A DNA stretch of 64,000 bases from an uncultured Schlesneria sp. (GTDB lineage: Bacteria > Planctomycetota > Planctomycetia > Planctomycetales > Planctomycetaceae). The stretch covers positions 1 through 64,000 of the forward strand of contig CAIULL010000062.1 of NCBI GenBank assembly GCA_903899985.1, in the 5' to 3' direction. Positions 19,338 to 38,592 of this stretch are shown here, piece by piece; position 1 is the first letter of the stretch, and each line of letters starts with the position of its first letter. The position numbers and the translations under genes were made by a program. The notes beneath the pieces are model-generated. The model was not told where the DNA came from, ran no database searches, and saw only the letters and a program-made list of their open reading frames with translations.

Positions 19338-20768
19338 TCACGCCAGAATTCCATTCACAACATTGCCGTGGATGTCGGTCAATCGATAGTCTCGACCCTG
19401 AAATCGATAGGTGTGGCGCAAATGATCGAAGCCCAATAGATGAAGCAGCGTGGCATTCAGGTCATGCACATGGACGGGATCGGCAACGACGTTGAACCCG
19501 AACTCATCGGTTTGACCGTGAATGTGTCCCGCTTTGATTCCGCCACCGGCCAGCCAGACACTGAAGCCCCGGTTGTGATGGTCGCGACCGTCATTGCCCC
19601 CCTGGACCATCGGAGTGCGGCCGAATTCGCCCCCCCAGACAACGAGTGTGTCATTGAGTAATCCTCGCTGCTTGAGATCGCGAACCAGTGCCGCACTCGC
19701 CTTATCCGTGTCGAGGGCATTCTGTTTCACTCCCGCCGTCAGATTGCCGTGCTGGTCCCAGGCTTCGTGAAAGAGTTGCACAAATCGCACGCCACGTTCC
19801 GCCAGGCGGCGCGCGAGCAGACAATTGCGAGCGTAACTCGATTCCTTCGGATCTTTCACACCATACATTTCGAGAGTTTCTTTGGACTCACCGCTGAGGT
19901 CCATCAGCTCCGGTGCACTTGTCTGCAGGCGAAAAGCCATTTCGTAGCTCTGAATCCGCGCGGCAGTTTCAGGGTCACCGATGGTCTCTTCAGCCATGCG
20001 ATTGAGTCGCTGCAACGAGTCCAGCGAGGTCCTCTGTGTCTCTGCATCGATACCTTTCGGGTTCGAGAGATATAAAACCGGATCGCCCGCGCTGCGGAAG
20101 GGAATCCCTCCATACATCGTCGGCAAAAAGCCGCAACCATAATTACTGGCGCCGCCGCTGGTCCCCTTGGCACTGGTCAAGACCACAAATCCTGGAAGAT
20201 CTTCGCATTCTGAACCCAGTCCGTACAAAGTCCATGACCCGAAGCTGGGTCGGCCAAACTGCTGCGAACCGGTATTCATCATGATCTGAGCCGGCGCATG
20301 ATTTACTGCGTCTGTCTGAAGCGACCGGATCAGGCAGATCTCGTCGGCGATGCTACCGGTATGTGGTAAAACTTCGCTCAATTCCATCCCGCATTGACCG
20401 TGTCGTTCGAATTTGAACTTTGGCCCAAGCAATGCCGAGTTCGGATTGATGAACGCCGCGCGATACCCCTTGAGAAGTTCAGCGGGAGGAAGCTGGCCAT
20501 TTCGCTTTGTCAGTTCCGGCTTGTTGTCAAAAAGCTCAAGATGGCTGGGTGCCCCGGCATTGAACATGTAAATCACACGTTTTGCCTTGGGAGGAAAATG
20601 TGGCTGGCGAACTGCCAGCGGATTGCCGGCTTGCGGAGCCGCCTCGGATTGACGACTGCTCAACGCACTGGCAGCGATACCCGCCAACCCCAGACCACAG
20701 TCTTTCAGAAACCAGCGGCGGCTGACATATCGAGCCAGAGCTTCTTGAATTGATTGAGTGTGATTCAT
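19338..20768 (-). CDS. DUF1501 protein (sulfatase-like fold, Tat-exported)
   Basis: A 476-residue protein with a twin-arginine signal ([19 protein letters not shown]) and the usual DUF1501 sequence: [57 protein letters not shown] and [25 protein letters not shown]. The fold is related to alkaline phosphatase and sulfatase; the retained Asp/His residues (GRDHH) suggest metal binding, but no activity is established. The start is 8 bp behind the stop of the DUF1549/DUF1553 gene, a pairing found over and over in planctomycete genomes, and the two are surely one operon and probably one periplasmic system. Confidence 0.93.
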
Positions 20769-20776
20769 CGTGACCT

Positions 20777-23700
20777 TCAGTTCTTGTTAACAGTTTCATC
20801 AAGATTCAGCAGCACACGTGACACCAGAGTCCAGGCTGCGGCATCTTGCGGTGTTGTCTGTGGTGGAATACTGGGTAACTTTGTCGCGTCGCCAGTGGCG
20901 ACTTCTCGAATATCCAACCATCCGTCGGCCAATCGCTGGCGTCGCGATTTCAACAGCGCGAGAACTTCCTCCCGTTCGGCGGATGTTGGCAGGCGTGAGG
21001 TACAAAGCTGGAAGGCGTAGCTGGCACGTTGCGAATCGTCGGTGCCTCCTTCTCGCAAAATTCTTAAAGCCATCGCCTGAGCCGATTCGACGAAAATCGT
21101 TTCGTTCAGTCCTGCTAAGGCCGACAATGGTGTGTTGGAACGGACGCGACGAGCACAGGCGGAATCGCTGTTGGGGGCATCGAGACTCGACAGCACCGGG
21201 TCCGGCATTGACCGTTTCCGGAATGCATAAACCGTACGTCGGTAACGCTCGGGACCGGTCGTCGGTTTCCAGTAGGCAGGATAGACGTAATTGTAATCGA
21301 GCACATTTTGCGGCACAGGCGGAATGATGGCTGGGCCGCCGATTCTGTGAGTGATCAGGCCGGAGGCACTGAGTGCGATGTCTCGCAGGACTTCCGCTTC
21401 GGCTCGAAAACGGGGTCCGCGAGCGAGCAGATGATTACGGGGATCACGTTCCCGCAGTTCAGGACTGATCGCCGAACTTTGCTGATAGGTCGCGCTGTTG
21501 ACGATCGTACGAATCAGATGTTTCTGGCTCCATCCATGCTCCATGAAATCGACAGCCAGCCAGTCAAGCAGTTCTCGATACTCAGGGATAGCGGCACGTG
21601 TCCCGAAATCCTCGGACGTTTCAACCAGCCCTTCACCAAAGATGGCCTGCCAGACACGATTGACGGCAACTCGCGCCGTCAGCGGCGATCGTTTGTCCGC
21701 CAGCCAGCGAGCAAATCCAAGACGATTACGAGGTTCATTTGCGTCCATTGGATGAAAGGCGGCGATCGTGTGCGGCAACACGATTTTCTGCGGCTTATCC
21801 CAACTGCCTCGCTCAAGGAAATGGGTCGGACGGACGTGGTTACCCTGACGTTCAGCCAGATGCAGAACCGATGTGAGCGCCGTCGGGTATTGCTTCCACA
21901 GGCCATCGATCTCGTCATTAAGTGGCTTCAGGTCTGGAACCGACAATCTCCAGGCAGTGAAAATCGCGGACGTTTGTTCGGCAGTCCGCTGATCGACCGG
22001 AGTCTGCATCGCCAGCACCGCAGCATAATTGACGGGCAGTACGGCAGGACCAGGTGCGAGTGTCAGGCTGATCCTCATACAGACCAGCATGTCATTGGTT
22101 CGAACCGCCAGCTTGAACTTTGTCCCTTCAGGCAGATCCAGCGGTTGCTCAAACTGAACGACAGCCACGCTCGGTTGATTACGACGGCCGATGCCCCGAT
22201 CTGCTTTCCAGGATGTCTCATCGGTTCCATCGATCAAATACGCCACCGGCCCTTTTGATTTCTTGTCTTCCTTCTGGTCCGGCTCAGAAAAGTCGGCGGT
22301 CGCGTTGACCAGTTTGAGTTTTTCCCAAGCGTCGCCCCCGGGTCTCTGGATGGTCGTCTCAATTTCGGTCACACCCCAGATCCCTGCTGGACCACGACCG
22401 GGACCGCCAAACGGCAAATCTCCGTGCGTCAACGCTTCCAGTCGCAATCCAGTAACCCCTTTCAATACCGGTTGCGAAATCAGGAAAACATCATTACTGG
22501 GATGCCCCCGCATCAGGATCGACTTATCGCCTAGTTGTGTTGGATGGTTCAGTCCACTGAGGCTTCCCATTTCGATTGCTTCGATCGGGGTCCAGGGCAA
22601 TTGATGCTTGAGGACATCATTTTCCCAGGTCGCCAATTCCTGTTGCCACTGCGGATGCTGAGCACGTACTTTATCTTCAACCTCGCGGATCGATTTGTGC
22701 ACGTTTTGAAGTTGTTGTTTTTGCTCCGGAGTGTAGACCCACGATTGGGCTTCGTAGGAGTTATTCAAGAAGGCAAACATCCCGTAATACTCGTCCTGTG
22801 TAATGGGATCGAATTTGTGCGAGTGGCATTGAGCACACTGTGTCGAAAGACCGAGGACCGCTTTTCCGAGACAATCCATCCGATCGAACATCTCAACCAT
22901 GCGAAATTCCTCCGCAACAATGGCTCCTTCTTCGTTAAGCATGCTGTTCCGCAGGAATCCCGTGGCGATGATCTGATCCTGCTTCGCGCCGGGCAGCAGG
23001 TCTCCCGCAATCTGTTCGATCAGGAATTGATCGTAGGGAAGGTCTCGATTCAGAGCATTAATGACCCAGTCGCGCCAGATCCATTGATCGCGTTGCACAT
23101 CTTTCTCATAGCCATTCGTGTCAGAATACCGGGCGACATCAAGCCAGTGCCGAGCCCATTTTTCGCCGTAACGTTCGCTCTTCAGCAATGATTCAACTGT
23201 GGCGGCGAGTCCATTTTTCTCGAACTCTTCCACCTCTTTCGGTGAAGGAACAAATCCGACCAGATCCAGATAAAGTCGACGACACAGCGTCGATGCCGGG
23301 GCCGTCGGCGATGCCGGGACGTTCAAAGCCTGAAGCCGAGGCCTGACGATCGCATCAACGGGATTGACTGGCCCATCAGTGGGCAAGGCGACTTTCTGCG
23401 GCGGGACAAAAGCCCAATGAGCGGCATAGTTTGCTCCCTGATCAACCCAGCGTTTAAGAGTCTCAATCTGCTGAGGCTTCAGCGGCTTGTTCTCTTTCGG
23501 AGGGGGCATGACTTCCGCCGGGTCAGTCGAAACGATTCGGCGAATTAGCGCACTGATATCCGGCTTGCCAGGAACGATGGCAGGTGTTCCCGAATCTCCC
23601 CCCTTGAGAGCGACTTCACGGATATCCAACCGAAGTCCCCCCTGCCGTGTCACGTCATCGCCACCATGGCAATGAGTGCAATGTTCAGCAAGAATTGGCT

Positions 23701-23806
23701 GCACATCCCGTTGATAATCAACAGTCTGAGCCCAACCGATCGAGGGATCAATCAGACTGACGATTGTCGTCAGAAAAAGAAAAGCCGATACAGAAAAGCA
23801 TTTCAT
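20777..23806 (-). CDS. DUF1549/DUF1553 protein with planctomycete cytochrome c domain (PSD1-type)
   Basis: A 1009-residue exported protein. After the signal peptide (ending near GWAQ) a PSCyt1 domain has CTHCHGGDD (Cys43, Cys46, His47), a c-type haem site, followed by VMPPPKEN with the axial Met region. DUF1549 follows ([66 protein letters not shown]), including a second CxxCH. A beta-rich middle part leads to DUF1553 ([43 protein letters not shown]). Start at 23806 gives [12 protein letters not shown]. It is upstream of the DUF1501 gene in the same operon. The family is almost restricted to Planctomycetes and relatives; roles in periplasmic redox breakdown of complex substrates have been proposed but not shown. 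Confidence 0.94.
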
Positions 23807-24180: not shown

Positions 24181-27100
24181 TTACGGGCGAAACACCGCCT
24201 GGAACAATGAGCCCTGATTCGTACCGCTCGTGGAAACGGTCGTAGTGCCGTAGGTGGCGATCACCTGGCTCGCCGCCAAATTGACCTTCAAAGTCGACGT
24301 CACATACCGGAAATCAAGTGCGTTGTATCCCGTACCGCTTGGTGTCACGATCACGGTGGATGCGTGATCCAGGCAAACGAACGTGTTTGCATCCCCGTTA
24401 GCACCGATCATTTGATCAACGCCTGTTCCGGTCGTGAACTCGTTGTTCCCCGCACCGCCGATCAGAGTGTTGTTCCCCAATCCCGCTGTCAGGATGTTGA
24501 TCGCGGCGTAACCGGTGGCATCCAGTGTCACATTCGCCCCGGTCCCTGCCGTCAATCGGTTTTCACCGCCAGCATTGGTTGAGCCATACACGCGTTGAAA
24601 CGCGTTTGTATCGATGGCATTAGCAACATAAACCCGTCGGTTTGTGGCTGACGCCAGCCATAACGTATCAGCCGGGTCATTCACCCCCCCAGGAGTATTG
24701 AGATTCACTTGTAGCGGCGCGCCGATTGACGACGTTACTTTTGAGAAGTCGAGTGTGTTGGCCCCCGTTCCCGGAGCGATGGCGTTAATTGAAATGCCGA
24801 TCGCATCGCCGAATTTATAGGTGGTCGCTCCCAGACCACCTCTCAATATTTCGGTTCCATAATTTCCTGCCGTCAGCGTGTTCGTTCCCGATGAAGTGGA
24901 GACGTCCAGTGTCACGTTCGGTCCCACTCCTCCCGTCAACTGGTTTGCGCCACCAGCATTAGCTGAACCAATCACAAGTTGAAACGCGTTTGTATCGTTC
25001 CCATTGCCAACATAAACACGTCGATTTGTGGCTGAGGCAAGCCACAACGTGTCGGTCGGATCGTTCACCCCTCCGCTGGTTGCCAGATTCACCTGAAGTG
25101 GCGCGGCGGTTGAGCTCGTTACGCTCGAGAAGTTGAGCGTGTTTGTTCCCGTTCCCGGCACGATTGTGTTGAGAGAAATCCCGACGGCATCACCGAATGC
25201 GTAGGTGTTCGACCCGGAACCTCCTTTTAACACTTCATTACCCGCGTTGCCTGCTGTCAACGTGTTCGTTCCCGATGAACCAGAGACATCCAGCGTCACA
25301 TTCGGGGCAGCACCTGCCGTCAACTGGTTTGCACCACCAACGTTGGCTGAACCGATGACAAGCTGAATTGCATTCGCAGCGTTACTGTTGCCAACATAAA
25401 CTCGTCGATTTGTGATGGATGCCAGCCATAAGTTGTCAGCCGGATCGTTCACCCCTCCGCTGGTTGCCAAATTCACTTGAAGCGGAGTTCCTGGCGCGGA
25501 TGTCACGTTCGCGAAGTTGAGTATGTTTGTTCCCCTTCCCGGCATGATGGTGTCGAGCGAAATGCCGGCCGCATCACCGAATCGATAGGTGTTCGAACCT
25601 GAGCCACCTTTCAACACTTCATTTCCTGCATACCCCGCTGTCAGCGTGTTTGTTCCCTGTGATCCGGCGACATCCAGCGTCACATTCGGTCCGGCACCTC
25701 CCGTCAGCTGGTTTGCTCCGCCAGGATTGTTTGAGCCAATCACAAGTTGGAACGCGTTCGTATCAATTCCATTGAAAACATAAACTCGCCGACTCGTTGC
25801 AGACGCAAGCCATAAGTTGTCAGCCGGGTCATTCGCCCCTCCGCTGGTTGCCAGATTCACTTGAAGTGGCGCGGCGGGAGACGACGTCACGTGCGAGAAG
25901 TCGAGTATATTCGCTCCCTTTCCCGGTACGATGGCATTGAGCGAAATGCCGACAGCATCGCCAAACCCGTAGGTGTTTGACCCCGAACCACCTTTCAATT
26001 CTTCAATGCCCGAATTCCCCGCTGTCAGCGTATTCGTCCCCGATGAACCGGAGACATCCAGGACCAAGTGCGGGTTCGCTCCACCCGTCAGTCGGTTTGC
26101 TCCGCCAGCGGTATTTGAGCCAGTGACAAGCTGAAACGCATTTGCATCACTGCCATTAACGACATACACGCGTCGTAGTGTTGCAGATGCAAGCCACAAC
26201 GTGTCGGTCGGGTCAGTCACACCTCCACTGGTCGCCAGATTCACTTGAAGAGGCGCGGCCACCGAGGACCTTACCTGTGAGAAATCAAGATTATTTGTTC
26301 CCTTTCCTGGCACGACGGTGTCGAGCGAAATGCCGACGGCATCAGCGAATTTGTAGGTGTTCGTCCCCGCCCCCCCTTTCAACTGATCATTTCCCGCCCC
26401 CCCGGCTGTCAACGTGTTCGACCCTGATGAACCAGAGACATCCAGGATATCGTTACCTGATCCGCCCGTCAGAGTATTCGTGGCGGACCCTCCCACCACG
26501 TTGATGTTTGACGAAACCGTGTTCGACGTCAGCGAGAGACTCAGGTTGGAATTTCCCTTATTGACCTGCTGAACGTACGTCATTGAAAGGTCCAGCTGAA
26601 CATCGGAACTCGTGGAAAAGTCCAGTTCGTCCTGAGCAACTGATCCCGTTAAGTCATCGACGACGACATTTCCAATCAGGTTTGTTGAGACAAAGCCATA
26701 AATGTTGTTCCCCGTCGCACTGACAAAGCCTTGTGTGGACGAACCTGATCCAGCTAACGTGATTCCGCCGGGGATATTTGAAAACCCTTGATTGGTCGAG
26801 TCGATACGAACCGTATCGTTATTGTTCTGGGTCAACACCGCAATTGCGGAGAAGGCCGCGAGATTTGCCGTCACATCGTAGTCAGCCTGACCGTTGATTG
26901 TCGTTGATCCCGAACCCGTCAGAAAAAAGTGCATCGTCGGCGTCTGGGAATTAGTCAAATGGTATTGCAGGGTAACGACGTTGGTGGCTGCGTTGGACGG
27001 ATCGGTAACGACCAGTACTCCGGCATTGGTGACAGCGGCGGTAAGGTCCGTCAGAAGTCGACGACTTTCCAGCATTTGGACATCTGCAAAAGATCGAGCC

Positions 27101-27183
27101 GCCTGAACAGGACGGCGGCTGCGTGACGAATGAACATTCAAACGTCCTCGACATACTTCACTTAGCCAGCTAATGAGTCGCAT
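24181..27183 (-). CDS. Large exported repeat protein with RTX-like motifs and LESRRLL signature
   Basis: A 1000-residue, Gly/Asn/Thr/Ser-rich protein. Near the N terminus VQMLESRRLLTD (residues 36-46) is the planctomycete signature found at the start of very large surface or secreted proteins, thought to mark export. A beta-rich region of about 220 residues follows, then RTX-like turns (GGSGNDILD, GGAGNDQLKGG) and five tandem units of 128 residues from about residue 270 to 909. Each unit contains NTYxFGDAxGIS, APLQVNL, TLWLASATxRRVYV, NAFQLVxGS and TLDVSGSSGTNTLTAG. The end has GGAGNNEFTTGTGVDQM and an Ala/Thr-rich tail. It is probably an adhesin, matrix or S-layer-like protein that binds Ca2+ through the GGxGxN/D turns (inference). 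It is transcribed alone. Confidence 0.78.
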   Translation of the reverse strand: MRLISWLSEVCRGRLNVHSSRSRRPVQAARSFADVQMLESRRLLTDLTAAVTNAGVLVVTDPSNAATNVVTLQYHLTNSQTPTMHFFLTGSGSTTINGQADYDVTANLAAFSAIAVLTQNNNDTVRIDSTNQGFSNIPGGITLAGSGSSTQGFVSATGNNIYGFVSTNLIGNVVVDDLTGSVAQDELDFSTSSDVQLDLSMTYVQQVNKGNSNLSLSLTSNTVSSNINVVGGSATNTLTGGSGNDILDVSGSSGSNTLTAGGAGNDQLKGGAGTNTYKFADAVGISLDTVVPGKGTNNLDFSQVRSSVAAPLQVNLATSGGVTDPTDTLWLASATLRRVYVVNGSDANAFQLVTGSNTAGGANRLTGGANPHLVLDVSGSSGTNTLTAGNSGIEELKGGSGSNTYGFGDAVGISLNAIVPGKGANILDFSHVTSSPAAPLQVNLATSGGANDPADNLWLASATSRRVYVFNGIDTNAFQLVIGSNNPGGANQLTGGAGPNVTLDVAGSQGTNTLTAGYAGNEVLKGGSGSNTYRFGDAAGISLDTIMPGRGTNILNFANVTSAPGTPLQVNLATSGGVNDPADNLWLASITNRRVYVGNSNAANAIQLVIGSANVGGANQLTAGAAPNVTLDVSGSSGTNTLTAGNAGNEVLKGGSGSNTYAFGDAVGISLNTIVPGTGTNTLNFSSVTSSTAAPLQVNLATSGGVNDPTDTLWLASATNRRVYVGNGNDTNAFQLVIGSANAGGANQLTGGVGPNVTLDVSTSSGTNTLTAGNYGTEILRGGLGATTYKFGDAIGISINAIAPGTGANTLDFSKVTSSIGAPLQVNLNTPGGVNDPADTLWLASATNRRVYVANAIDTNAFQRVYGSTNAGGENRLTAGTGANVTLDATGYAAINILTAGLGNNTLIGGAGNNEFTTGTGVDQMIGANGDANTFVCLDHASTVIVTPSGTGYNALDFRYVTSTLKVNLAASQVIATYGTTTVSTSGTNQGSLFQAVFRP
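24457..26376 (-). repeat. Five tandem 384-bp in-frame repeats inside the 24181-27183 gene
   Basis: Five consecutive units of 128 codons, each starting at a GGxGxxTYxF segment. Units 2 to 4 are most alike, unit 5 (C-terminal) is the most diverged at its end and unit 1 differs in DNPH/LVLDV-type substitutions. DNA identity is visible by eye, for example AACGCGTTTGTATCG recurring at 384-bp spacing (near 24600 and 24985), which argues for recent duplication or gene conversion. Confidence 0.85.
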
Positions 27184-27463: not shown

Positions 27464-28573
27464 TTATTGGATCGATTGACCGTGCCCTGCGTCGTGCATT
27501 CCCATTTTTACCAGGCGGACGCACCATGCAATGACGAATGTCACGGCGATCGCTGCGACAACAAAGACTCCGAAACCACCGACATTCGCGGCTTCGACGT
27601 GGCGCGGATACAAGCTGGCGAAATCTACGGCGCTGATACGGATTGCTTCTCGGATCACAGAAACTCCCAGCAGCGTCATCAGTAACCCTGTCGTTGCGGT
27701 TGCCAAGCCAAATACACCCAAACGATTCGATCGCCACTGAAGGCTCCAACCGATTGCTTGCAAGATCGCACCGCAGATGGTCAGCAGGACGAAGGGAAGT
27801 GAAAATGTCCCGAGCACAAGACTTCGTGATGCCGTGCCTGAAAGCGCAACGTAAGTCGTCCCCGCAATGAGCGACGCGGCAAGCCCGCAAATCGACATTC
27901 CTGCCAGCGAGCGAGAACCAGCGACGGAACCGCCGTCTGAATCGGTCGATTGGCGATATTGCAATTGCCAGCCAACAATGACAGACATCGTGGCGAACGA
28001 ACCGCCGATCCAGACCAGCATTCTCAGAATGACTGCGACAACAGAAAACGGTAAACGACCCGTGAGGTAGATTTCCGGCCAATCGGCCTCGCTGTTCGCC
28101 AGCAGATGATTGATCGTCCAGCAGAAACCGACGAAAACGAAACTGGTTGATGTCGCCACCACAACTGCAGCGCGCACCGCGTAAGGCCAGTTCCATAGCG
28201 TTCGACTCTTGATCAGATACAAAAGATAGAACGCGATAATCATCACGGGAACAACCACACCCCAACGCCACCATAACAACAGGTTCGCCGTGTAGAACTG
28301 ATATTGATAGACGATCTGAATGAACAATAACGGAGCGACACCGGCTGTGATCGCGGCACTGAGCAAGAACGGCATCCAGTCGCGTAGTGTTGCTGATAAC
28401 GGCTGTTCGGTAAGGCAAGTCGTTTGCCCCTGCCGGATCGTCGCCCAGGTCAAATAGAGACTGCCTGCCAGGACATAATGCATGAATGCCTGATGCAGGA
28501 TGAATGTCAGCAGGAAAAGTGTGACATAGACAGCGGTGGGATGAGGTAAGCCAAAAGGAAAAATCGCGTTCAT
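27464..28573 (-). CDS. Polytopic membrane protein, possible second subunit of a cytochrome bd-like complex
   Basis: A 369-residue protein with about eight or nine hydrophobic segments. Its first helix region, VYVTLFLLTFILHQAFMHYVLAG, resembles the first helix of the neighbouring cytochrome bd subunit I-like protein (GLVMAGVAIVHVFLAQFAVGG), with His27 falling where that protein has His26, the counterpart of the b595 ligand of CydA. The remainder is less conserved; I see no CxxCH and no GRQPW. It starts 21 bp after the stop of the CydA-like/cytochrome c gene, so the two form one operon and probably one complex. It may be a degenerate CydA-like partner that replaces CydB (inference). A generic membrane anchor is the alternative. 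Confidence 0.5.
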   Translation of the reverse strand: MNAIFPFGLPHPTAVYVTLFLLTFILHQAFMHYVLAGSLYLTWATIRQGQTTCLTEQPLSATLRDWMPFLLSAAITAGVAPLLFIQIVYQYQFYTANLLLWWRWGVVVPVMIIAFYLLYLIKSRTLWNWPYAVRAAVVVATSTSFVFVGFCWTINHLLANSEADWPEIYLTGRLPFSVVAVILRMLVWIGGSFATMSVIVGWQLQYRQSTDSDGGSVAGSRSLAGMSICGLAASLIAGTTYVALSGTASRSLVLGTFSLPFVLLTICGAILQAIGWSLQWRSNRLGVFGLATATTGLLMTLLGVSVIREAIRISAVDFASLYPRHVEAANVGGFGVFVVAAIAVTFVIAWCVRLVKMGMHDAGHGQSIQ

Positions 28574-28594
28574 GGCGTTGACCAGCCCCGTGTT

Positions 28595-30019
28595 TTATTC
28601 GTGTTGTCGAGAAGAAGTCCGCTTACGGTTCTGTGCGAAGTCACCTGGCGCCGTCCCCGCCTCCTTCAGCCAGTCCGCAATTTGCGCAAGCGTCTCAGGG
28701 TTTTCACTGGTGGGCCATCTGGCCGGCCGATGGTCACTGGACCAGTTGACGAACTGCACGAGTGACTCCACCTCGTCGGCTGTACCGGCGAACGGAGGCA
28801 TGAACGGTTTTGTATGTTGGAGCTTTGCGAAATTGATCCGCATCTGATTTTCGTCCCATGAACCAGTCAGTTCCGCTACGGCGTTTGTTCCGTGCACGGT
28901 GTGGCAGACGCTGCATTGACGACGAAAGACTTTTGAGCCGATGCGGACCTGATCGTTGGGATATTGCGCATCCTGACGAAGTCCGTATCGATCATTGCGG
29001 AGACTGCCGACCTCCCGTAACAGGTCCACTTCCTCCGGTTTGATCGAGTTCGAGTAAAGCAAATGACGGATGGAATACGGCTTGCGTGAGCCCTCGCGGA
29101 CAAATTCGCCACCTGCCGTGGCACCAAACGCCAACATTAACATCAGCATTGCGGTGGCCCCGTTAATATATAACCGTTGTAACACCATGCCGATGATCGC
29201 ATAGGTTCCAATCGCCAGTGATGAACCGATCGAAATGCTGAAGAAGAGCATCATGGCCGGGCTGCCGCCGAGCACCCAGCTACGGCTGTCTGCTGGCATG
29301 ACGGCGAGAAACCAGATGCCAAGAAACGGCATCAGTACCATGGGGATCAAGAGATGTGCAGCGCGATTGATCAAGGCTCGTCGTGCTTCTCGATCGAGCG
29401 ACCACATTAAGTTCGTCACGACGCACGCGGCCAGGGCCGACAACGTCAGCGAGACAACGGTTCGAAACAACAGACTCGGCCAGAAGCTCGGATTAAAAAA
29501 GCCGTCAAAAATGTTCCGCGTTTCCAACCAACGTCCGGGGGTTAGTTGCCACGACAAAATTCCGTTGATGACAAACAGACTCAACCACGAAGCGATCGCA
29601 TAAATCGCCAGCAGCGTCATCGCCGTACGGTCATTCAATCGGGAGTGGTATCGGTAGAAACAATATCCTGAAACGATTTCCAGGCAGAAGAAGGTCCACT
29701 CGGTCGCCCACAACCAATGAAAGTTGTCGACCATGGCACCGATCGTCGCGGGACTCACCTGAATCGCCGTGAACCAGATTCCCACCCCGGTGAGTGCTCC
29801 GACAACAAAACTGATCAAGACCAGCAGCTTGAAATAACCTTCCACAAACTGACGAGCATGAGGCTCACGCCCCGTCATCGCCAGCCATTGGAAATAGCAC
29901 AATAATATTCCGCCCCCCACAGCAAACTGAGCCAGAAAGACATGCACAATCGCAACACCCGCCATCACAAGTCCTGGCATCAGCGGGCCGTAATCATTGA
30001 TGGGATAGACGTCTGACAT
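28595..30019 (-). CDS. Cytochrome bd-like oxidase subunit I fused to C-terminal cytochrome c
   Basis: The ATG at 30019 has AGAGGGA about 8 nt upstream and gives 474 residues; the open frame continues to 30223 but that part is not family-like. The N-terminal about 310 residues are CydA-like: VAIVHVFLAQFAVGGG (His26), ATEWTFFCLEIVSGYCFYRYHSR (Glu107, Glu114, matching the paired helix-3 Glu of CydA), and a degenerate quinol-motif counterpart EGSRKPY (309-315) where CydA has E-x-GRQPW. After a short linker comes a cytochrome c domain with CSVCH (Cys369, Cys372, His373) and a likely axial Met in KPFMPPFAG. CydA normally oxidises quinol and reduces O2; the loss of GRQPW and the added haem c suggest electrons enter from cytochrome c or another donor, as proposed for the OR-C branch of the bd superfamily (from memory). 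Confidence 0.75.
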   Translation of the reverse strand: MSDVYPINDYGPLMPGLVMAGVAIVHVFLAQFAVGGGILLCYFQWLAMTGREPHARQFVEGYFKLLVLISFVVGALTGVGIWFTAIQVSPATIGAMVDNFHWLWATEWTFFCLEIVSGYCFYRYHSRLNDRTAMTLLAIYAIASWLSLFVINGILSWQLTPGRWLETRNIFDGFFNPSFWPSLLFRTVVSLTLSALAACVVTNLMWSLDREARRALINRAAHLLIPMVLMPFLGIWFLAVMPADSRSWVLGGSPAMMLFFSISIGSSLAIGTYAIIGMVLQRLYINGATAMLMLMLAFGATAGGEFVREGSRKPYSIRHLLYSNSIKPEEVDLLREVGSLRNDRYGLRQDAQYPNDQVRIGSKVFRRQCSVCHTVHGTNAVAELTGSWDENQMRINFAKLQHTKPFMPPFAGTADEVESLVQFVNWSSDHRPARWPTSENPETLAQIADWLKEAGTAPGDFAQNRKRTSSRQHE

Positions 30020-30260
30020 TTTCTGAGTCCCTCTCATCAGTGTTATAGTGCGAGCGTCTTCGAGAAACACCAGCAGCATCCAATCAAAGTCACAATTCCG
30101 GGGCGAGTTCTTCAAGGGCGTTTTGTTCATTGTTCCCGACGGCCTCAGCATCGGAACGGTAAACTGAGCCGTATCGGCCTCGACTCTGTTTTGAAATTGT
30201 GCGACGCCCAGTCCAGAAACCACGCGGCTGGTTTACGGTTGCATCAAGGGAGCGTGAAGC

Positions 30261-35011: not shown

Positions 35012-36244
35012 ATGCTTCACCAAGGTTTGTCTCATAAAGCAAAGTGGATTTTGCTGGTCGTCGTTTTTTTGGGACTGGAGCGTACTTCCATTGCCCAGAA
35101 GAAGGACCCTTTTCGAGAGGCCCGTCACTACCTCGTCTCCGAATACATCGAGCGAGAGGGGATTACAAATCCTCGTGTGCTGGATAGCCTTCGTCAGGTT
35201 CCAAGGCACGAATTCGTCACACCGCAATATCGCCACGATGCCTATGTCGACGCGGCGTTACCGATCGGTCATAAACAAACGATTTCGCCGCCGTTCGTCG
35301 TTGCTTATATGACCCAGACGATTGACCCCCAACCGGAAGACCGTGTGCTGGAAATTGGTACCGGTAGCGGCTATCAGGCAGCGGTCCTTTCAAATCTGGT
35401 CAAAGAAGTCTATTCGATAGAAATCGTGGAAGCACTGGGAACAACGGCGGCCGAACGATTGAAGCGACTCAAATACGATAACGTGAAAACGAAAATCGCT
35501 GACGGATATCTCGGATGGGAAGAGTATGCCCCGTTCGACAAAATTATCGTCACGTGTTCTCCGGAAAATGTCCCACAACCATTGATTGCGCAACTGAAAG
35601 AAGGAGGACGGCTTCTCGTTCCACTGGGCGAACGTTATCAGCAGGTCTTTCATCAGTTTGAGAAAAAAGACGGCAAGCTGGAAGAGAAGAAACTGATCTC
35701 GACACTGTTTGTTCCGATGACCGGGGAATCGGAAGAACAGCGTAAAGTGAAGCCTGATCCGCTACATCCGAAGATCTTGAATGGAGGTTTCGAAGCAGAT
35801 CAAAATAATGATGGCTACGCCGATCACTGGCACTATCAACGTTTGACGACGTTGTTGGAAGAAGGTGCCCAGGAAGGAAAACGCTGTATCTTGTTCGAAG
35901 CAACCGAACCTGGTCGACTTGCTCAAGGATTGCAGGCGGCTGCAATTGATGGTTCGAAAATTGGATCGCTGCAGGTTCGAGTTCAGTATAAGACCGAAGA
36001 CGTGAAAAACGGGCGAGAAGAGCACGAGATCGCTTCGATTCGATTTCATTTCTATGATGAAAATCGACGCGCAATCGATAACCCCTTTGTCGGACCTTGG
36101 GTTGGCACACACGACTGGTCAAGGGCCACAAAAACCATCAACGTCCCCCCAAAGGCTCGCGAGATGATTGTTCGTATTGGATTGAACGGTGCGACTGGAA
36201 AGCTGTGGCTGGATGATCTTGTCATCACGCCAAAGCCACGGTGA
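35012..36244 (+). CDS. pcm: Exported protein-L-isoaspartate O-methyltransferase with C-terminal beta-sandwich domain
   Basis: A 410-residue protein with three parts. Residues 1-29 are a signal peptide (KWILLVVVFLGLERTSIAQ). Residues about 33-215 are PIMT: VPRHEFVTP, HKQTISPPFVVAYMTQ, motif I VLEIGTGSGYQAAVLS, FDKIIVTCSPENVP and LKEGGRLLVPLG. Residues about 250-410 form a carbohydrate-binding-like beta-sandwich (NGGFEADQNNDGYADHWHY ... GKLWLDDLVITPK). PIMT methylates isoaspartyl residues in damaged proteins using SAM; an exported copy would have to obtain SAM outside the cytoplasm, so its use there is unclear. The GGGGGG ahead of the ATG at 35012 is a plausible ribosome binding site. The stop overlaps the start of the DNA methyltransferase gene by 4 bp. 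Confidence 0.85.
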   Translation: MLHQGLSHKAKWILLVVVFLGLERTSIAQKKDPFREARHYLVSEYIEREGITNPRVLDSLRQVPRHEFVTPQYRHDAYVDAALPIGHKQTISPPFVVAYMTQTIDPQPEDRVLEIGTGSGYQAAVLSNLVKEVYSIEIVEALGTTAAERLKRLKYDNVKTKIADGYLGWEEYAPFDKIIVTCSPENVPQPLIAQLKEGGRLLVPLGERYQQVFHQFEKKDGKLEEKKLISTLFVPMTGESEEQRKVKPDPLHPKILNGGFEADQNNDGYADHWHYQRLTTLLEEGAQEGKRCILFEATEPGRLAQGLQAAAIDGSKIGSLQVRVQYKTEDVKNGREEHEIASIRFHFYDENRRAIDNPFVGPWVGTHDWSRATKTINVPPKAREMIVRIGLNGATGKLWLDDLVITPKPR

Positions 36245-38592
36245 TATCCATTTCTACGAGTCGATCAGTGGAAACATCACTCAAGAACTGGTGCCGGGAA
36301 TCATTAGCACACTGCCGTGCTCGACCGCTGATTGATGAACTGACTGGTCTCGACGTCGAGCCCGAAAGAAGGGTGGATGTCTCCGCGTTTAACACGTTGC
36401 TGACGCAGCGAGGGATCAGCCTTGTCGATCAACGGTCTCGGTCAATTACAGAAGTTCTTCCCCGATGGGTTTCCGACGAGAATCTGCCCTGCACATGTCC
36501 ATTGGCTGTTGGATCACCGATCGAAATACTTGGAGAAATCCACGAATTCCTCGTGTCGATAAGGACAAAGTCGTGGAAGGGGTCTGGTGAACAGGGCCAG
36601 AAATCACGCACCGTCAATGGGATTTTCTACACGCCAAAATATATCGTCGATGAGATCGTTCAACAGACGCTTGGTACACGTCTGCTGAATGCGAGTCAAC
36701 CCGAAGGATCGCAAATCACAATCCTTGATCCCGCAGCCGGCTGCGGGGCGTTTCTCGTCGCAGCGTATCGAACTCTGCTGGACTGGCATCTGAATTGGCT
36801 GATTTTGAATGACAGTGCCAAGAGCACTTCCGATGTCGTCAGAACACAAGATGGATGTCAATTGACGTTTAGCCGATGTCAAGCGATTCTCGCGAATCAA
36901 CTGTTTGGCGTCGACCTTGATCCGGCAGCAATTGAAGTCCTGCGGCGATCGCTGTGGCTGATGAAGCTCGAATCCGCTGCACCCGAAAGCTGGCCTGATT
37001 CACTAAGCGATAGCTGGGATTCCCTGAGATCCAATTTCAAGACAGGACATGCGCTGATCGGTCAATCGTTCGCAGATGTCCATTCTCTAAACGATGCCTC
37101 GGCGCCTGAGCAACGCACCGATTCCGAATTTCACTGGGGTCGTGAGTTCCCCAAGGTCTTTGAGAAGGGCGGGTTTGATCTCGTCATCGGTAATCCGCCG
37201 TACCGTCGCGAGCGAGACTTCAAACACGAACTTGACAAAATTGGCGAAACCGCGTTCGGTCGTCAGCACCGATCTGCCCGCATGGACTTGTGGTATTACT
37301 TCGTTCATCGCGGCATGGAACTGCTGAAACAAGGCGGGTCACTCTCGTTCATCACCAATTCCTACTGGATCCACGGAAAAGGAGCCGAAAAGCTGATCGC
37401 CGCACTGCGAGATGAGGCGCACCTGGACGAACTGTTTCTGCTTCGCAACCAACCGATATTTTCGGGGGTTTCTGGTCAGCATGTCATATTCCGCCTGACA
37501 AAGTCGAGCAGTGATTGTGGTACGAAGATCAAGGTCGCCTCGAACAATCGCTCTTTCTCTGCAGAGCCTTTTATCACGGGTCAGGCTCACGTCCGTCAGT
37601 TTGTTAAAACGAAAGAACAATTGTTTCGTGGGGGTCGGCTTGACGTCATGCCACCGCTCGAGGGATTGCTCAATAAGCTTGAGAGTTGTCCCCCGCTTTC
37701 CGAATTCGGAGCCGTCCGGCAGGGGATTGCCGAGAACCCGGCCACCATAAATCGTCGGACACTGGAACGATTCCGCAGCCATCCCCAGGCATCTGGCTGG
37801 ACCGCCGGTGAAGGGGTCTTTTCGCTGCTGTCCGACGAAGTGATTCGCCTTCGCCTTTCACCTGATGAAGGCAAACTTCTGCGACCGTACCATGATCTTT
37901 GCGATCTGGATCGTTACTGGTCTGCCGCACAACCTTCGCGGCAATTAATCTTTTCAACTCGACAAACTTGTCCGGAGATCGAGATATTTCCTCAACTTCA
38001 TAAGCATCTTGAACGATTTCGGCCAATCCTGGAGGTACGTCGAGAAACAACTCAAGGGAGCAACAGTTGGTGGCACCTGCATTGGCCACGTGACGATCAA
38101 ATCTGGCAGTCAGACAAACTCGTTGCCCTTCAAATGGCAAAGCGTCCGAGCGTTGTGGCAATATTTGGACCGGCGTATGTGCCTTTTAGTGCGAATGTCT
38201 TTGTCCGATCGGCGGGTACGCGAGAGGATCTAAGATATTTCTGTGGCGTGCTCAATTCGAAAGCTCTCTGGACCTGGTTTGAACATCACTCAAAGCGCCG
38301 TGGAGTTGGCCTGGAAATTAACGGGCGGACACTCGGACGTGCTCCGATTCGCCGCATCGATTTCGATGCCACGCACGATGTCAGAAGACACGATGAAATT
38401 GTGGAATTAGTCGAATTAAGAGTGCAGTTGTCGTCGACATCCACGACAAAGTCTCAGGGGTCAACCAGCCAGACGAATATAAGGATCATTGAGGTCGAGT
38501 CAAGAATCGATTCTCTGGTTGCCGAGCTTTATGAACTGGACGACTTCGACAGAGAAACGGTTGACGAGATCACAGGTGGCGAAGACCGGTGA
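36241..38592 (+). CDS. Eco57I/type IIG-like DNA methyltransferase (adenine-specific), no nuclease domain seen
   Basis: A 783-residue protein beginning at GTG 36241, within the stop of the upstream PIMT gene (GTGA overlap). After about 120 residues without recognisable motifs comes GIFYTPKYIVDEIVQQTL, then motif I ILDPAAGCGAFL (from Asp163) and motif IV NPPY (318-321), the amino-methyltransferase order of N6-adenine enzymes. GGSLSFITNSYWIHG and LFLLRNQPIFSGVSGQHVIFRL fit the Eco57I methylase core, and the C-terminal half (LLRPYHDLCDLDRYW ... FCGVLNSKALWTWFEHHSKRRG) is a TaqI/Eco57I-like target recognition domain. The N-terminal stretch is shorter than a type IIG nuclease domain and shows no PD-(D/E)xK motif. 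It is likely an orphan modification enzyme or one half of a defence system whose partner is not adjacent. Confidence 0.8.
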   Translation: MISISTSRSVETSLKNWCRESLAHCRARPLIDELTGLDVEPERRVDVSAFNTLLTQRGISLVDQRSRSITEVLPRWVSDENLPCTCPLAVGSPIEILGEIHEFLVSIRTKSWKGSGEQGQKSRTVNGIFYTPKYIVDEIVQQTLGTRLLNASQPEGSQITILDPAAGCGAFLVAAYRTLLDWHLNWLILNDSAKSTSDVVRTQDGCQLTFSRCQAILANQLFGVDLDPAAIEVLRRSLWLMKLESAAPESWPDSLSDSWDSLRSNFKTGHALIGQSFADVHSLNDASAPEQRTDSEFHWGREFPKVFEKGGFDLVIGNPPYRRERDFKHELDKIGETAFGRQHRSARMDLWYYFVHRGMELLKQGGSLSFITNSYWIHGKGAEKLIAALRDEAHLDELFLLRNQPIFSGVSGQHVIFRLTKSSSDCGTKIKVASNNRSFSAEPFITGQAHVRQFVKTKEQLFRGGRLDVMPPLEGLLNKLESCPPLSEFGAVRQGIAENPATINRRTLERFRSHPQASGWTAGEGVFSLLSDEVIRLRLSPDEGKLLRPYHDLCDLDRYWSAAQPSRQLIFSTRQTCPEIEIFPQLHKHLERFRPILEVRRETTQGSNSWWHLHWPRDDQIWQSDKLVALQMAKRPSVVAIFGPAYVPFSANVFVRSAGTREDLRYFCGVLNSKALWTWFEHHSKRRGVGLEINGRTLGRAPIRRIDFDATHDVRRHDEIVELVELRVQLSSTSTTKSQGSTSQTNIRIIEVESRIDSLVAELYELDDFDRETVDEITGGEDR

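Follow-up and report, generated by a model that had tools for sequence, protein, structure and literature searches.

We analysed a 64,000-nucleotide stretch of DNA (the window) from an uncultured Schlesneria sp., contig CAIULL010000062.1, in which two adjacent genes appear to encode diverged relatives of CydA, subunit I of the cytochrome bd oxidases. Gene A (28595–30019) encodes a protein of 474 amino acids that joins a CydA-like membrane domain to a C-terminal c-type cytochrome, and gene B (27464–28573) encodes a protein of 369 amino acids with nine predicted helices, a putative CydA-like partner that we label CydA′. Both genes are intact and lie on the minus strand, like all features of the pair given below, and B lies 21 bp downstream of A, as an earlier note on this DNA had reported. 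The start codon of A is the ATG at 30019, a choice supported by the conservation of the N-terminus. The membrane domain of A (residues 1–320; 29060–30019) has eight predicted helices, and the cytochrome c domain occupies approximately residues 350–430 (28730–28972).

The comparison with known bd subunits places A beside CydA. Against a profile of 13 canonical CydA sequences, hhalign gave 97.8–98.2% with an E value of ~1e-13, column-reversed controls gave 0.3–0.6%, and the CydB profile gave 1.2–1.6%. The AlphaFold2 model of A (predicted local distance difference test, pLDDT, 84.6) superposes on CydA chains with Z-scores of 26.4–29.6 over 302–314 residues at 2.8–3.1 Å. Sequence searches of the PDB with A or B singly returned no convincing match for the membrane parts; the profile of A found a bd subunit I chain (E 3e-7) and the profile of B nothing convincing. 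Pfam recognizes only c-type cytochrome models in A, PF13442 scoring above its cut-off at E 4.6e-7. In the wider A family, the CydA model PF01654 matches 11 of 38 members at E ≤0.1, the best at 3e-17, and it passes its curated cut-off at the position of the A homologue in four relatives (G015, G041, G045, and G053). From the profiles and the predicted fold, we identify A as a CydA homologue that has diverged strongly and carries a c-type cytochrome at its C-terminus.

The alignment of A comprises 65 rows (89 rows thinned by shared words to 61, plus the A of the window and three later rows). In the hhalign residue map, His26, Glu107, Glu114, Glu309, and Arg312 of A correspond to His19, Glu99, Glu107, Glu445, and Arg448 of Escherichia coli CydA. 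His26 occurs in 64 of the rows, the remaining row being gapped at this position, and Glu107, Glu114, and Glu309 occur in all 65; His26, Glu107, and Glu114 are the residues by which the earlier note had recognized a CydA-like domain. As set out in passages of PMC6853902, Glu445 of E. coli CydA ligates haem b595, Glu99 ligates haem d, and His186 and Met393 ligate haem b558, and in a passage of PMC8951039 the other high-spin haem of a bd oxidase is ligated by a conserved histidine. On this alignment, the ligand residues of both active-site haems (His19, Glu99, and Glu445 in E. coli) appear to be retained in A, as does the proton-path glutamate, Glu107 of E. coli and Glu114 of A. The motif E305-F-V-R-E309-G-S-R312-K-P-Y315 (29075–29107) aligns with W441...E445-x-G-R448-Q-P-W451 of E. 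coli, with Glu305, Arg308, Glu309, Arg312, Lys313, and Pro314 each present in 65/65 rows. Its EGSRKPY portion had been taken in the earlier note for a degenerate quinol motif; judged by the alignment it is instead the haem b595-ligand motif, intact in the residues that count. Trp441 of CydA, which lies near the haem ligand, aligns with Glu305 of A (29105–29107), and the glutamate is invariant in the family.

The quinol site of bd oxidase is located at the Q-loop in a passage of PMC8951039. This loop, with its conserved Lys and Glu, is gone from A, where the E. coli segment ~240–385 has only ~20 counterpart residues. That the quinol site is missing, as the earlier note had held, is shown by the absent Q-loop and not by EGSRKPY. 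The haem b558 ligand His186 is replaced in the alignment by Phe185, beside the invariant Arg186, and no column in helices 5 and 7 of A carries a histidine in more than 3 of the 65 rows. The second ligand, Met393, is replaced by Ser263, and Met256, present in 54 of the 65 rows, lies seven residues off. By alignment, then, both haem b558 ligands are lost in A.

The cytochrome c domain sits after the Glu309 helix, where CydA has its ninth helix, and a Pfam cytochrome c domain is found in 38/38 A-family members at E ≤0.1. Its CSVCH haem c attachment motif (C369–H373; 28901–28915), likewise pointed out in the earlier note, is followed by the likely axial ligand Met407; C369, C372, H373, and M407 are each conserved in 65/65 rows. 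The loops of A that precede this domain carry 10 Lys/Arg per 56 inner residues versus 3 per 64 outer residues, with the helix ends placed by hand from the model; the c domain would therefore lie in the periplasm, the side on which haem c becomes attached.

The alignment of B comprises 68 rows (88 rows thinned by shared words to 65, plus the B of the window and two later rows), one of which (L040) duplicates the B of the window itself. The nearest relative of B is A: hhalign gave 91–94% over 270–273 columns that begin at the histidine of helix 1 and end at the E-x-x-R motif, and 0.5–1.4% for reversed controls. At E 0.001, a model of the membrane part of B recovered 45 of the 65 rows of A but not a single row among the 13 CydA, the 13 CydB, the 24 long open reading frames (ORFs) from OR-N-like loci, and the 115 reversed rows; relaxing the threshold to E 10 gave 63/65, 1/13, 2/13, 3/24, and 15/115, respectively. 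His27, which the earlier note had placed in a CydA-like first helix, is present in 68/68 rows. The segment R308-E309-A-I-R312 of B (27638–27652) falls, in the hhalign comparison of the two genes, at the place of R308-E309-x-x-R312 of A. Arg312 is kept in 63/68 rows and Glu309 in 56/68 (otherwise five Gln, five His, one Asp, and one gap), and B has no acidic residue where CydA has Glu99 and Glu107. The B model (pLDDT 86.2, nine helices) matches CydA chains with Z-scores of 23.6–26.2, and in the fold list, which shows one chain per entry, the CydA chain is the best chain in 10/10 bd entries. In Foldseek, the 20 best rows for B are all bd-oxidase chains. From its profile match, B is identified as a distant paralogue of A. 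That B might be an unrelated transporter is ruled out by the bd-oxidase rows and the profile match to A, and no Pfam scan names a transporter. As a separate observation, whole ORFs of five of the 68 B rows (L059, L098, L101, L127, and L128) end in a C-terminal CxxCH motif, with two such motifs in L128; in these five loci both subunits of the pair may carry haem c.

The folds of the two proteins bear on a quite unlikely alternative, in which the pair runs in the reverse direction, as a quinone/cytochrome c oxidoreductase that does the work of alternative complex III with a bd-like membrane fold. A and B do match alternative complex III chains, as well as the membrane subunit of polysulfide reductase, with Z-scores of 14.8–19.0 (16.4–18.4 for A), and reverse electron transport is proposed for a Nitrospina bd-like protein in a passage of PMC3578206. 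However, CydA chains match both proteins better than these do, and A retains the bd haem ligands. NrfD-like proteins are not known to have such ligands. Moreover, no partner gene, such as one for an iron-sulfur protein, is widely common beside the pair.

Of the 89 loci that contain A, 88 have B next after it, encoded on the same strand. The total combines two sets that gave 58/59 and 30/30 and that share genomes, that of the window included; in the sole exception (L007) the contig stops ~200 bp past A. Across 69 loci, the distances between A proteins track those between B proteins with a correlation of 0.88, a value reached in 0/2000 permutations; the calculation left out fragments and copies of the window (L039, L040, L072, L089, and L092), L007, which has no B, and rows identical in A. 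A larger operon was also considered. ORF clustering over 39 loci found no third gene widely common to the A–B loci: the only widely common clusters are A, B, and other-frame ORFs over them, and the next clusters occur in 4 loci. A and B are inherited as a unit.

The A family is patchily distributed, occurring in 20 of 59 near relatives and in 37 of 392 Planctomycetota genomes (the genome of the window is counted in both). To judge by record titles, matches also occur in four Polyangium records, one Myxococcales metagenome-assembled genome, and one Verrucomicrobiia metagenome-assembled genome, and homologues are found in named isolates, including Polyangium fumosum and Aeoliella straminimaris. 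This patchy spread suggests horizontal transfer of the family. The genome of the window gives no match to PF01654 or to the CydB model PF02322; since PF01654 misses A itself, the search excludes only a more typical CydA. The same genome has two COX1 matches, whose ORFs read as one aa3-like and one cbb3-like oxidase, and with these present a cytochrome c pool is likely. The claim of the earlier note that CydB is lacking agrees with both the genome search and the profiles, in which B is nearer to A than to CydB.

Judged from the sequences and the predicted models, A and B probably form a heterodimeric bd-type O2 reductase of the CydA/CydA′ kind that takes its electrons from a periplasmic c-type carrier and not from quinol. 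We infer the donor, the acceptor, and the haem content of this enzyme as follows. A soluble cytochrome c or a cupredoxin would reduce the fused haem c of A on the periplasmic side, and from this haem c the electrons would move on to the two high-spin haems, which lie close to the periplasmic face. There O2 would be reduced with cytoplasmic protons arriving via Glu114 and Glu107, and charge would be separated without proton pumping because the protons are drawn from the cytoplasm. B would scaffold the complex in the place of CydB and may itself hold a haem. The same c-fed enzyme might act on another substrate, such as nitric oxide, peroxide, or another small molecule, and serve detoxification; the ligand set indicates just a ligand-binding high-spin haem pair, and the genome already has its two haem-copper oxidases. 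Such a role is nevertheless unlikely, as the residues aligned with the bd active-site ligands are retained, and as no further neighbouring gene is widely common, nothing beside the pair indicates nitrogen or stress metabolism.

Several observations weigh against reading the pair as a c-fed O2 reductase with a CydA/CydA′ make-up. PF01654 gives no match to the A of the window, and the membrane model of A performs weakly on the B rows, recovering 5/68 at E 0.001 and 37/68 at E 10 versus 14/68 reversed rows. Compared directly with CydA, B gives only 1–3% in hhalign, below the 10–12% that it gives with CydB, the latter over the C-terminal half only. With Foldseek, B has no match at E 0.001, and by template modelling score the shorter chain, CydB, is the higher in 10/10 bd entries when scaled by the target and in 4/10 when scaled by B. 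The loop charge bias of B is weak (6 per 68 inner residues and 5 per 92 outer residues), and position 309 is Gln or His in distant B rows (10/68). The search of 10 upstream regions gave no FNR/CRP-like site, and FNR/CRP-type control of the pair was set aside on this result. Canonical CydA, counted as PF01654 matches of at least ~150 bits in phylum searches that scored at most four candidates per genome, is present in 5 of 37 genomes with A versus 69 of 355 without (p 0.51). Among the near relatives the counts are 2 of 20 with A versus 14 of 39 without (p 0.06), so that mutual exclusion of A and canonical CydA is hinted at among near relatives only and not phylum-wide; across the phylum, A neither replaces nor avoids canonical CydA. 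Finally, in the mycobacterial bd oxidase, the Q-loop seems unable to bind quinol and menaquinone is found near haem b595, according to a passage of PMC8951039, so that loss of the Q-loop is compatible with quinol use.

The mycobacterial site also favours a further alternative, in which the A–B enzyme would still take its electrons from quinol, bound close to the haem on Glu309 and away from the missing Q-loop, with the fused haem c acting as a sensor or letting electrons out. Several invariant residues of A, e.g., Arg186, Glu305, and Lys313, likewise speak for it. Against it stand the losses in A, of the Q-loop and of the two haem b558 ligands, together with a haem c site conserved in 65/65 rows, and we regard a displaced quinol site as very unlikely.

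As for the identity of B, the weak direct match to CydA means that the label CydA′ rests on the tie to A and on His27 and Glu309. B is far from both CydA and CydB when compared directly, and that it is nearer to CydA than to CydB is the less certain part of the assignment; of the CydA/CydA-like pair put forward in the earlier note, the kinship of B with A stands, and the ranking of CydA over CydB is less sure. Most of the tests made here nevertheless agree with the architecture proposed in that note. B as a CydB is not supported: beside the hhalign value above, one Pfam match at E 0.068 was found among 38 members, and a weak kinship with CydB may exist. Within the c-fed O2 reductase, the two haem sites may also be unequal, with A reducing O2 by electrons from the fused haem c, and with His27 and Glu309 of B holding a separate haem that helps to move electrons or protons; the dimer would then work as a bd oxidase without quinol, haem b558, and CydB. 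We put this forward tentatively, as a possibility that we consider doubtful; if true, it would be a subunit make-up not yet described for the haem-c branch.

Three families of the bd superfamily, qOR, OR-C, and OR-N, are named in passages of PMC13189123 and PMC10839748, in agreement with the remark of the earlier note that sequence surveys had described divergent bd branches; hidden Markov models for the three are used in PMC11707229, as a passage there states. For OR-N, passages of PMC10839748, PMC12342949, and PMC3578206 propose that two CydA paralogues pair (CydAA′) and describe the quinol-binding residues as missing; they report bd-like proteins of this kind from Nitrospirota and Nitrospinota, and a bd-like gene from Kuenenia too. 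A and B share with OR-N the loss of quinol residues and the pairing of CydA paralogues. However, the Nitrospina bd-like protein has 14 predicted helices (a passage of PMC3578206), compared with the eight helices and the fused cytochrome c of A. In a tree of transmembrane helices 1–5, a branch with supports of 100/98 sets the A family apart from canonical CydA as well as 18 OR-N-like proteins, the latter assigned by length and description, and the result carries a long-branch warning. In an observation apart from the pair, two long bd proteins of OR-N-like type (L115, 1783–4317, 844 amino acids; L117, 293–2848, 851 amino acids) have two CxxCH motifs each, and the A family may not be alone in joining haem c to a bd-like protein.

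OR-C (Murali, Gennis and Hemp 2021) is reportedly the bd branch with haem c and without a quinol site. By this definition, A is likewise a haem-c-bearing bd protein without a quinol site, and the A–B pair may be exactly one of the OR-C subfamilies; to judge from these sequence features, it most likely belongs to OR-C. In the literature searched, we found no account of the partner subunits of OR-C and none of OR-C1 together with cytochrome bd, which does not imply their absence from print. The archaeal CydAA′ of Caldivirga resembles the A–B pair in that a CydA paralogue replaces CydB; it is said to be a quinol oxidase without a haem c domain, unlike A–B. With a CydA-like gene beside a paralogue of it in place of CydB, the A–B pair fits the CydAA′ architecture, the weak point being the direct comparison of B with CydA. 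Compared with CydAB of E. coli bd-I, A shares the CydA fold, the active-site haem ligands, and the proton-path glutamates, and differs in having no Q-loop, no counterparts of His186 and Met393, and no ninth helix, in its fused cytochrome c, and in the absence of CydB. Since non-quinol bd families (OR-C and OR-N) and CydAA′ pairs are known from sequence, the A–B kind is already described, and the identity of B is the less certain and the more interesting part.

Just 5′ of A, the 15 bases CGCACTATAACACTG (30038–30052) seem to be kept in near relatives and form a possible −10 region of A. In the upstream alignment they are identical in the window, L001, and L002, show two differences in L003, and are weaker in L004; a sigma-70 scan did not flag them. 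Next to the pair, a large protein is encoded at 24181–27183 on the minus strand, most of it consisting of five tandem repeats of 384 bases (128 amino acids) that form an array at 24510–26445; this protein has no Pfam match at E 0.001. Further along the minus strand (19338–23806), a DUF1501 protein stands beside a PSCyt1/PSCyt2/PSD1 protein with a cytochrome c-like domain of its own, a combination common in planctomycetes. On the plus strand (35012–38592), the gene of a PCMT-domain protein overlaps by 4 bases the gene directly after it, which encodes an Eco57I/MmeI-like DNA methylase (783 amino acids); the pairing is odd.

According to a passage of a 2021 review (PMC8509429), every bd enzyme characterised by then seemed to be a quinol oxidase, and one with another donor was yet to be obtained. 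Electron transfer from cytochrome c to O2 has been predicted for proteins of this type. The A–B pair is a compact candidate for such a non-quinol bd enzyme, with two genes and a covalently bound c haem as a spectroscopic handle. Enzymes of this kind are partly hidden from Pfam searches, as A of the window is missed by PF01654 and B has no Pfam or NCBIfam family. If the pair works as proposed, bd-type reduction of O2 would not be bound to quinol.

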